NCBI RefSeq assembly: GCF_015482585.1
Contig: NZ_CP049742.1
Coordinates: 1,570,501-1,634,500 of the forward strand
DNA from: Mangrovibacillus cuniculi
GTDB taxonomy: Bacteria; Bacillota; Bacilli; Bacillales; R1DC41
Direction: 5' to 3'
Length of the DNA stretch: 64,000 nucleotides
A program made the translations under genes and the position numbers. Numbering within the stretch: position 1 is the first letter of the stretch; every line of letters starts with the position of its first letter. Positions 3,728 to 50,122 of this stretch are shown here, piece by piece. The notes beneath the pieces are model-generated. The model saw nothing but the letters and a program-made list of their open reading frames with translations, was not told the DNA's origin and did no database searches.

Positions 3728-3791
3728 GGAGACTCATCTAAGAGCAAGCCACATCACGTGGCTAACGATGAGTTGTTACTGGTCACGTAAC
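3728..3791 (-). repeat. Terminator-adjacent hairpin repeat, copy 1
   Basis: On the minus strand this 64-base element starts GTTACGTGACC right after the T-tract of the yqfL terminator. It then shows ACTCATC-GTTA-GCCAC-GTGAT-GTGGC-...-CTTA-GATGAGT and ends CTCC. ACTCATC/GATGAGT and GCCAC/GTGGC pair, leaving a GTGAT loop. Related copies lie at 8568-8629 and 50059-50122. Confidence 0.8.
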
Positions 3792-3795
3792 AAAA

Positions 3796-3833
3796 AAACA
3801 GTTCTTTGGAGAAAATCTCCAAAGAACTGTTTT
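3796..3833 (-). terminator. Intrinsic terminator after the PPDK regulatory gene
   Basis: Perfect inverted repeat ACAGTTCTTTGGAGA / TCTCCAAAGAACTGT followed on the minus strand by seven T; its first bases touch the stop codon at 3832-3834. Confidence 0.9.
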
Positions 3834-8505: not shown

Positions 8506-8553
8506 GGGAGACTTATCGTTGAACACATCACGTTGCGGGTGATGAGTTGTTAC
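8506..8553 (-). repeat. Diverged hairpin repeat, copy 2b
   Basis: On the minus strand GTAACAACTCATC ... GTGAT ... GATAAGTCTCCC repeats the architecture of copy 2, which lies 15 bases upstream on the transcript. One outer pair is mismatched and the inner stem is degenerate, so this looks like an older, decaying unit in tandem. Confidence 0.6.
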
Positions 8554-8567
8554 AAGAAGGACAATAA

Positions 8568-8629
8568 GGAGACTCATCTAAGTACAGACCACATCACGTG
8601 GTCAACGATGAGTTGTTACGTCACGTAAC
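8568..8629 (-). repeat. Terminator-adjacent hairpin repeat, copy 2
   Basis: On the minus strand GTTACGTGACGTAAC begins immediately after the seven-T tract of the T-box terminator. ACTCATC-GTTG-ACCAC-GTGAT-GTGGT-...-CTTA-GATGAGT-CTCC follows. Relative to copy 1 the inner stem has an A-T pair in place of G-C, a compensatory change. Confidence 0.8.
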
Positions 8630-8631
8630 AA

Positions 8632-8825
8632 AAAAACTCCCGCCCCTAGCGTTAAAGATAACGCTAGGGACGAGAGTTGACCCGCGGTTCCACCCTAGTT
8701 ACTGAAGAAAAACTCCAGTCACTTTTAAAGAAGTTGCTCCAAGATGCCGTTCAACAGTTGTTCCTTACCTAGCTTTCACTATCCTAGGTTCGCTTTAAAG
8801 TACAAGCTGTTTACTCCTTCTCTTC
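8632..8825 (-). promoter_or_regulatory. Glycine-specific T-box leader of glyQS
   Basis: Tandem regulatory RNA that senses uncharged tRNA-Gly and prevents early termination. On the minus strand the 14-base T-box core GGGTGGAACCGCGG lies at 8682-8695. Its TGGA can pair with a tRNA 3' end UCCA, as expected for tRNA-Gly. The likely specifier codon is GGC (8746-8748) in the context GAACGGCAT, the arrangement of known glyQS leaders. A strong terminator (about 8632-8678; CCCTAGCGTTA / TAACGCTAGGG plus T7) follows. Exact 5' end not determined. Confidence 0.93.
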
Positions 8826-8882
8826 AACACAACATAATAAAATAATATGATAAACAAAAACTACTCTATCTAGCTGTAAAAG

Positions 8883-20937: not shown

Positions 20938-21142
20938 CTGCACCGGGATTTCCGCTGCAGGGGGACGCTTTCCGCCTCGAAAAGCGGAAGGCGCGCGTTT
21001 AGCCACGACAGGAAAGTTCAGAAGACCGAGGAGGCAGTTCTTCAGCCACCGGAGGGCTTTTGGACTTTCCCGAGTGGTTGCGCACCTGGAGCTAGACATT
21101 TAACCTTTTCCGCAGGAGTCGCCCCCCTTCCGCTCCAATCCC
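20938..21142. repeat. Composite GC-rich repeat, element C copy 1 hosting element B
   Basis: The left end reads GGGATTTCCGCTGCAGGGGG then ACGCTTTCCGC. The right end reads CCGCAGGAGTCGCC and CCGCTCCAATCCC. The same ends bound the copy interrupted by the IS at 33.5-35.0 kb. Here the centre is replaced by a different element (20990-21086). Such GC-rich repeats are, from memory, common in Bacillaceae intergenic DNA; I know of no assigned function. Confidence 0.75.
20990..21086 (+). repeat. Structured element B, copy 1
   Basis: GGCGCGC ... GCGCACC at the ends pair in 6 of 7 positions. Inside, CCAC / GTGG and GGAAAGTTC / GGACTTTCC pair in order, giving a three-part nested stem. A second copy at 28927-29085 has different stem sequences that still pair. 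Confidence 0.7.
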
Positions 21143-28915: not shown

Positions 28916-28939
28916 GAAATGCTGTAGGCGCGCGTTTAG
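28916..28939. repeat. 24-base direct repeat, left unit
   Basis: GAAATGCTGTAGGCGCGCGT plus TTAG, repeated exactly at 29104-29127, 188 bases apart; the pair brackets element B copy 2. The left unit ends three bases from the grpE ribosome site region. Confidence 0.85.
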
Positions 28940-29085
28940 CTGCGGCAGGGAACTTGGGAAGACCGAGGGCTTGTGCGTGAGGCACTGTCTTCTACGTTGG
29001 TGACGTGATGTCACCTGCACTTAGTAGAAGGTCCTTTATAATCTCCACCACAGGGCTTTCCGAGTTCACAGAGCAGTTGCGCACC
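28927..29085 (+). repeat. Structured element B, copy 2, with a nested hairpin
   Basis: Ends GGCGCGCGTTTAG and GCGCACC as in copy 1. Internal pairs are CTGC / GCAG and GAACTTGG / CCGAGTTC, different from copy 1 but still complementary. The loop carries a GTGAT-type hairpin (28989-29034). The copy lies in the hrcA-grpE intercistronic region. Confidence 0.7.
28989..29034 (+). repeat. GTGAT hairpin repeat, copy 4 (stem-swapped)
   Basis: CTTCTAC-GTTG-GTGAC-GTGAT-GTCAC-CTGCA-CTTA-GTAGAAG-GTCC. Same joints (GTTG, CTTA) and loop (GTGAT) as copies 1-3, but the outer 7-base stem and inner 5-base stem have different, fully complementary sequences. The 5' GTTAC hairpin is absent. Confidence 0.7.
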
Positions 29086-50025: not shown

Positions 50026-50058
50026 ATTCCTTATTGTACATACAATAAGGAATTTTTT
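50026..50058 (+). terminator. Terminator after sda
   Basis: ATTCCTTATTGTA / TACAATAAGGAAT perfect hairpin followed by TTTTTT. Confidence 0.92.
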
Positions 50059-50122
50059 GTTACGTGAACTGTAACAACTCATCGTTGGCCACGTGATGTG
50101 GCTCGTACTTAGATGAGTCTCC
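50059..50122 (+). repeat. Terminator-adjacent hairpin repeat, copy 3
   Basis: Begins at the base after the sda T-tract: GTTACGTGAACTGTAAC, then ACTCATC-GTTG-GCCAC-GTGAT-GTGGC-...-CTTA-GATGAGT-CTCC. Same strand as the terminator, as in copies 1 and 2. Confidence 0.82.

Follow-up and report, generated by a model that had tools for sequence, protein, structure and literature searches.

A double-hairpin repeat behind intrinsic terminators, related to Bacillaceae-1 RNA, as a probable mobile DNA element

R1 copies in the 64-kb window

The window, that is, the whole 64-kb stretch of DNA analysed here (C1:1570501-1634500), belongs to a two-contig genome of 3,153,416 bases. It contains three full copies of a double-hairpin repeat of 64-66 bp, which we call R1. 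The plus-strand copy (50059..50122), detected by both blastn and a covariance model, lies behind the terminator of a small sda-like ORF. This intrinsic terminator (50026..50058, plus strand), read from the sequence, has the stem ATTCCTTATTG/CAATAAGGAAT, and its T-run ends at 50058. The copy at 3728..3791 (minus strand), detected by the covariance model, lies behind the terminator of a yqfL-type gene (Kinase-PPPase); here the terminator (3792..3830, minus strand) was read as ACAGTTCTTTGGAG...CTCCAAAGAACTG followed by a T-run. The third copy (8568..8629, minus strand) is a 62-nt form with the first hairpin GTTACGTGACGTAAC, located between the glyQS T-box terminator and glyQ. The T-box attenuator terminator and its T-run were read at 8630..8678 (minus strand), and the Rfam scan gave a T-box match (RF00230) at 8663-8836 on the same strand. 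The first-pass annotation had placed all three copies at the correct positions and strands, each with GTTACGTGA beginning at the base after a T-run, and gene matches together with the RF00230 match bore out its yqfL-type and glyQS genes and its T-box.

A decayed tandem partial copy without the first arm of the first hairpin follows at about 8507..8553 (minus strand). Allowing up to three mismatches, the R1 core pattern occurred four times in the window and never in 100 shuffles, while the 9-mer GTTACGTGA alone, with one mismatch, was not enriched there (16 occurrences vs 11.1 expected). The window also holds another member of the Rfam family RF01690 (41.3 bits; 28972..29040, minus strand), which lies inside a longer mosaic repeat and has no terminator before it. 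A mosaic of ~200 bp includes a GC-rich module (..CTGCCGCGGCTGAACGCGCGCC..CTTTT) that was observed at 20979-21031 and 28916-28968.

Copy number, structure and placement of R1 in the genome

A blastn search of the genome against itself detected 40 near-full R1 copies, and the covariance model was built from these, using the element only and excluding the flanks. At E-values up to 1, this model gave at least 145 R1 matches in the genome among the best 150 candidates scored, so further copies may exist beyond the 145. R1 was thus far commoner than had been noted from the window. All 145 copies were read together with their flanks.

Each R1 unit opens with a small hairpin (GTTAC/GTAAC; loop GTGA...), and its second hairpin is long, in two parts, with the loop GTGAT. 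In the alignment of the 40 copies, 97.7% of cells were base-paired and five pairs were changed on both sides, a number reached by only one of 500 shuffles; the count of further pair types in this alignment was not unusual (80 of 500 shuffles). The copies that are exactly 64 nt long number 105; in these, 1657 of 1785 cells were paired, and whole versions of the long stem were swapped between copies (ACTCATC/GATGAGT in 34, ACTCAGT/ACTGAGT in seven, ACTCGGT/ACCGAGT in five, and ACTCCGT/ACGGAGT in three). The first loop was GTGA in 88 of these copies and the second GTGAT in 80. The likeness of the two loops suggests one binder for both hairpins. As single-stranded DNA, the consensus folded better than shuffled sequences on the terminator strand (z = -4.1) and on the other strand (z = -3.0).

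The unit had first been described as ending in CTCC. This tetranucleotide is present, but TT comes next in 78 of the 105 copies, as it does in most RF01690 members examined, and the unit may therefore be 66 bp long. The ends, GTTAC... and ...CTCC(TT), are not inverted repeats of each other, as a DDE-type MITE would require. Identity to the consensus ranged from 0.70 to above 0.95 across the 105 copies, several of the weakest matches carried deletions, and several copies were without the inner hairpin. The copies thus form an age gradient, which is what mobile DNA should show. One copy at a terminator (L248, C1:2933050-2933242) is interrupted by a mosaic repeat that separates its two halves, which looks like the entry of one repeat into another. 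Near-identical tandem R1 pairs lie behind the same terminator at C1:1-199 and 381981-382119; as one of the pairs is at the contig start, duplication or an assembly effect is possible.

We examined how strictly R1 is tied to terminators. At least four T's were present in the last five left-flank bases of 128 of the 145 copies, including all 40 blastn copies. A T-run together with a hairpin (stem score of at least 9) was found before 115 of 145, as scored by a purpose-written script that rates some real terminators badly, for example that of the purine-riboswitch copy at 3118566. Stems scoring at least 12 preceded R1 at T-runs of 4, 5, 6 and 7 in 40% of 20, 83% of 23, 84% of 31 and 89% of 35 cases, respectively, against 2% of 3483, 5% of 1253, 6% of 451 and 16% of 180 background T-runs in 20 sample stretches (300 kb) of the same genome. 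A plain preference for T-runs as the target was rejected, because hairpins are far commoner before R1 than before background T-runs.

The flanks themselves are diverse. At 70% identity, the 145 left flanks fell into 134 clusters. Clusters with several members were formed by ten copies that follow a repeat module and by two pairs from a duplicated site. Only 19 of 10440 right-flank pairs were similar. The number of left-flank clusters led us to reject movement of terminator and R1 as one block within this genome. Many copies away from terminators, or a whole terminator-repeat block on the move, were the outcomes that the first-pass annotation had set against its own reading; neither was seen, the latter in a comparison within this genome alone.

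The 17 copies without a T-run at the left edge comprise members of tandem clusters, copies whose edge is decayed or shifted, a copy that follows another repeat, and a split copy; two of the 17 (1254882 and 1989873) have no terminator in sight. The copy at 1134101 has a T-run but no hairpin. At least ten copies with a short T-run, elsewhere in the genome, lie directly behind a repeat module ending in CTTTT, the GC-rich module of the window (CTGCCGCGGCTGAACGCGCGCC), instead of an ordinary terminator. A search for an empty version of the duplicated terminator (C1:1 and 381821) returned only the two occupied places and weak matches to the other strand of the hairpin itself.

R1 is not confined to gene ends. 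We chose 46 sources with no same-strand gene end within 150 nt upstream of R1, and the Rfam scan covered 41 of them (the window and 40 loci), leaving out L202, L203, L204, L212 and L245. In 13 cases, the Rfam match of a regulated leader ended 22-71 nt before R1 on the same strand. Five of these sites were T-boxes (the window, L004, L223, L225 and L246), and the riboswitch sites were SAM (L020 and L022), TPP (L186 and L236), purine (L206 and L250), lysine (L230) and Mn (L198). R1 was also found behind RNase P (L210), two tRNA arrays (L227 and L247) and BsrF (L016). The feature common to these sites is the terminator. If R1 is mobile, at least 13 leaders of the riboswitch or T-box type would carry an internal insertion, placed immediately after the terminator.

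The orientation of R1 was also biased, with 130 of 145 copies co-directional with replication, on replication arms whose limits were first drawn partly from R1 copies and then supported by GC skew. Under matched criteria, 78 of 87 R1 copies were co-directional compared with 73 of 111 terminators at gene ends (p = 9e-5), and stricter criteria for R1 and gene-end terminators gave p = 2e-3 and 3e-3. Compared with ORFs in the sample (213 of 270), the bias of R1 (78 of 87) was weak (p = 0.026). The strand bias fits, without proving, insertion into the lagging-strand template, where co-directional genes have their terminator strand exposed and free to fold. R1 lay in 85 tandem and 37 convergent gene settings, compared with 14 tandem and 41 convergent in the background, where bidirectional terminators were possibly counted twice. 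As convergent settings were not enriched, an action of R1 on convergent transcripts was rejected.

Relationship to Bacillaceae-1 RNA and occurrence in relatives

The reverse strand of R1 matches Bacillaceae-1 RNA (RF01690), so that Rfam and the terminators are on opposite strands. Of the R1 copies in the 40 scanned loci, 12 reached the gathering score of 35 and the others remained below it; the opposite strand of the window copy at 50059..50122 scored 32.8 bits. Judged by these matches, R1 is a divergent branch of RF01690, and the earlier statement that it belongs to no described family does not hold. Both have two hairpins, GTTG/CTTAG joints and a conserved (AA)GGA end on the Rfam strand. They differ in their loops, which are GTGA(T) in R1 and mostly CAGGAY in RF01690 elsewhere, and in their setting, as R1 is a solo unit directly at terminators whereas RF01690 elsewhere lies in mosaics or rRNA spacers.

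Of the 397 genomes sampled from the order, 197 contained RF01690, 87 of these with at least 12 matches, and the genome of a Halobacillus halophilus strain had 78 members. A T-run with a hairpin within 8 nt was present at one of 30 RF01690 loci elsewhere (the best-scoring ones, one per genome), compared with 103 of 145 R1 copies by an equal measure. The loop types were observed to vary among genomes (L043-L072), with CAGGAY and CACGAY elsewhere and GTGA in the R1 genome, as if tracking a changing recogniser.

The Bacillaceae-1 motif came from a computational screen, as an excerpt of PMC2864571 states, and the portions consulted of two further papers report eight Bacillaceae-1 in B. subtilis (PMC8208703) and ten in Brevibacillus reuszeri (PMC5764928). 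Rfam types RF01690 as an sRNA, and its strand is called uncertain in a section of PMC4333381. Neither mobility of Bacillaceae-1 nor a link to terminators appears in the excerpts of PMC2864571, PMC9029176, PMC8208703, PMC4333381, PMC5764928 and PMC10440787. The family name is known; the terminator placement rule was found in no text of the literature covered, and a 2022 two-class Bacillaceae-1 study lies outside that literature.

In the same section of PMC4333381, Gardner and colleagues proposed two CsrA sites in the Bacillaceae-1 reverse complement, which here is the strand in the terminator direction. R1 might accordingly be read as a CsrA-binding RNA, and two AGGAY motifs were present in 25 of the 30 RF01690 loci elsewhere and one in the other five. 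Yet none of the 105 full-length R1 copies carries GGA in a loop, and the R1 strand behind terminators would be transcribed only by read-through. This motif-level misfit led us to reject CsrA binding for the R1 branch, and we regard such a role as extremely improbable.

Some RF01690 members elsewhere touch the 5' end of 16S or 5S or lie at most 9 nt from it (L296, L297, L298, L300, L314, L316 and L321), with the rRNA ends set by Rfam models. RF01690 touches the 5' end of 16S or lies 6 nt before 5S in Bacillus sp. SKDU12 and B. inaquosorum; Lederbergia and Domibacillus carry it in the opposite orientation, 8-9 nt ahead of 16S.

These rRNA-adjacent members, the strict placement of R1 and the maintenance of its stems by paired changes would all suit a selected RNA element, in which the double hairpin stops, cuts or protects read-through RNA. 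Against such a role, the 145 R1 copies compare with roughly 1,160 estimated terminators, they occur at leader attenuators as well as gene ends, and they form an age gradient in which several copies are without the inner hairpin. In addition, RF01690 loops differ among genomes, and the orientation beside 16S differs among genera. We therefore consider a selected RNA function unlikely, including the action on 3' ends that the first-pass annotation offered as its alternative.

To place R1 in time, we compared glyQ loci of other species. In a GlyQ scan of 80 loci, the T-box motif GGTGGNACCGCG preceded glyQ in all 80, and a run of at least five T's followed the motif in 71. The R1 model, at E-values up to 1, gave no match in these 80 loci (1.02 Mb). 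The terminator of the glyQ T-box is thus old, and R1 was added in this lineage; the 40 relatives compared share the order only, none being closer. When the best 13 candidates per genome were scored in the remaining 396 genomes sampled from the order, R1 of its own type gave one match (G331) at E-values up to 1e-7. Weak R1 matches in G002, G007 and G032, 20 of which were read, lay inside mosaics or other repeats. No match to R1 was found in the plasmid and phage sequences searched. In G032, a mosaic with an RF01690-like unit was observed to start directly behind a terminator T-run (L263), and the lineage of R1 may therefore not be quite alone in following the terminator rule.

Candidate mobilisers and a proposed mode of insertion

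R1 lies directly after intrinsic terminators, as do group IIC (class C) introns, which insert after terminators according to the excerpt of PMC4424553. Its start also coincides with the usual RNA 3' end. R1 could thus be imagined as a retro-element attached to transcripts at the 3' ends left by termination, or as one targeted in the manner of those introns. However, no reverse transcriptase (RVT_1) match was found in this genome, which is 98% complete, making a group IIC-like route unlikely now, and R1, at ~65 nt, has no intron features. We consider a retro-element origin highly improbable.

The genome has one Y1 transposase gene. It encodes a RAYT-like protein of 195 aa that scored 60.8 bits, below the RAYT cut-off of 80, and it raises the question of whether R1 is a REP sequence moved by the genome's own transposase. 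Like REP/BIME sequences, R1 is short, present in many copies, mostly intergenic and found in mosaics, and it may have a comparable tetranucleotide head with an imperfect palindrome. On its reverse strand, GGAG precedes the imperfect palindrome and TAAG lies in the interior; the REP heads are GTAG/GTGG. This arrangement recalls enterobacterial REPs with GTAG heads, and the portion consulted of PMC2817692 names REPs that carry GTAG and TAAG. TnpAREP acts strand-specifically on folded single strands, according to part of PMC8266576.

The genomic evidence points away from this enzyme. The RAYT-like gene adjoins a different, 85-bp tandem repeat (L031, C1:2436854-2437404), and the nearest R1 match, among the matches listed, is ~32 kb away. 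The same portion of PMC2817692 describes the rayt gene as flanked by two inverted REP copies; R1 shows no such arrangement. An RF01690 scan of 20 RAYT loci found none, and none was present in L031. Across the 397 genomes, RAYT and RF01690 were not associated (126 with both, 71 with RF01690 only, 122 with RAYT only and 78 with neither; p = 0.60), nor were they when the comparison was restricted to genomes with at least 12 RF01690 matches (p = 0.26). RAYT was missing from 28 of those 87 genomes, 18 of which also had no Y1_Tnp match. With no co-occurrence and no RF01690 at RAYT loci, RAYT was rejected as a general mobiliser of RF01690. R1 further differs from REP/BIME in its strict terminator target, and mobilisation by the RAYT-like protein of this genome seems rather doubtful, if somewhat less so than the other alternatives; an enzyme since lost is conceivable.

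IS200/IS605 elements and their miniature derivatives have hairpin ends, a fixed 5' target and a lagging-strand bias. R1 resembles them in all three respects. In contrast, its target is a hairpin plus T-run, there is no room for a guide 5' of its first hairpin, and the one Y1_Tnp gene available as a cognate transposase is the RAYT-like gene with its different neighbouring repeat.

Taken together, these results suggest that R1 is probably a non-autonomous mobile DNA element of the RF01690 branch, which moves as a folded single strand and inserts behind terminator hairpins. This interpretation draws on the copy number, the exact abutment, the need for a hairpin, the unrelated terminators, the paired stem changes, the decayed and tandem copies, and the co-directional bias. 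On insertion, one end of R1, always the same, would be placed immediately 3' of the terminator T-run, on the same strand. The target may be the terminator hairpin folded in the exposed lagging-strand template, to which a hairpin-recognising enzyme, supplied in trans, would join R1 in its folded single-stranded form. Folded R1 and folded terminator would then both be recognised in single-stranded DNA. Of the first-pass reading, an undescribed family with a mobile element targeting terminators, the second part is well supported by the at least 145 copies abutting unrelated terminators exactly, by their decayed and tandem forms, and by their absence behind the glyQ T-box in the 80 loci.

More tentatively, Bacillaceae-1 "RNA" as a whole could be, instead of an sRNA, a large family of mobile repeats that travel as folded single strands by means of an enzyme other than a reverse transcriptase or any known RAYT. 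Here the family would have acquired new loops and a new target, the terminator hairpins exposed on the lagging-strand template; we regard this wider reading as possible but hold it with less confidence than the mobility of R1 itself. R1 suggests a mobile-DNA nature for an Rfam sRNA family whose function is unsettled. R1 itself would be a mobile repeat of a non-retro kind, for which intrinsic terminators serve as safe places to land, and with its strict target rule the ~145 copies would offer natural insertions for studying hairpin recognition in replicating DNA. The pneumococcal SPRITE is likewise a repeat tied to terminators in a Firmicute, but SPRITE is itself terminator-like, as the excerpt of PMC3049150 indicates, whereas the terminators of R1 are host sequence outside the element.

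The 85-bp repeat beside the RAYT-like gene is possibly the partner of that transposase, and arrays related to it were observed near 96, 164, 191, 200, 599, 2347, 2420 and 2897 kb.
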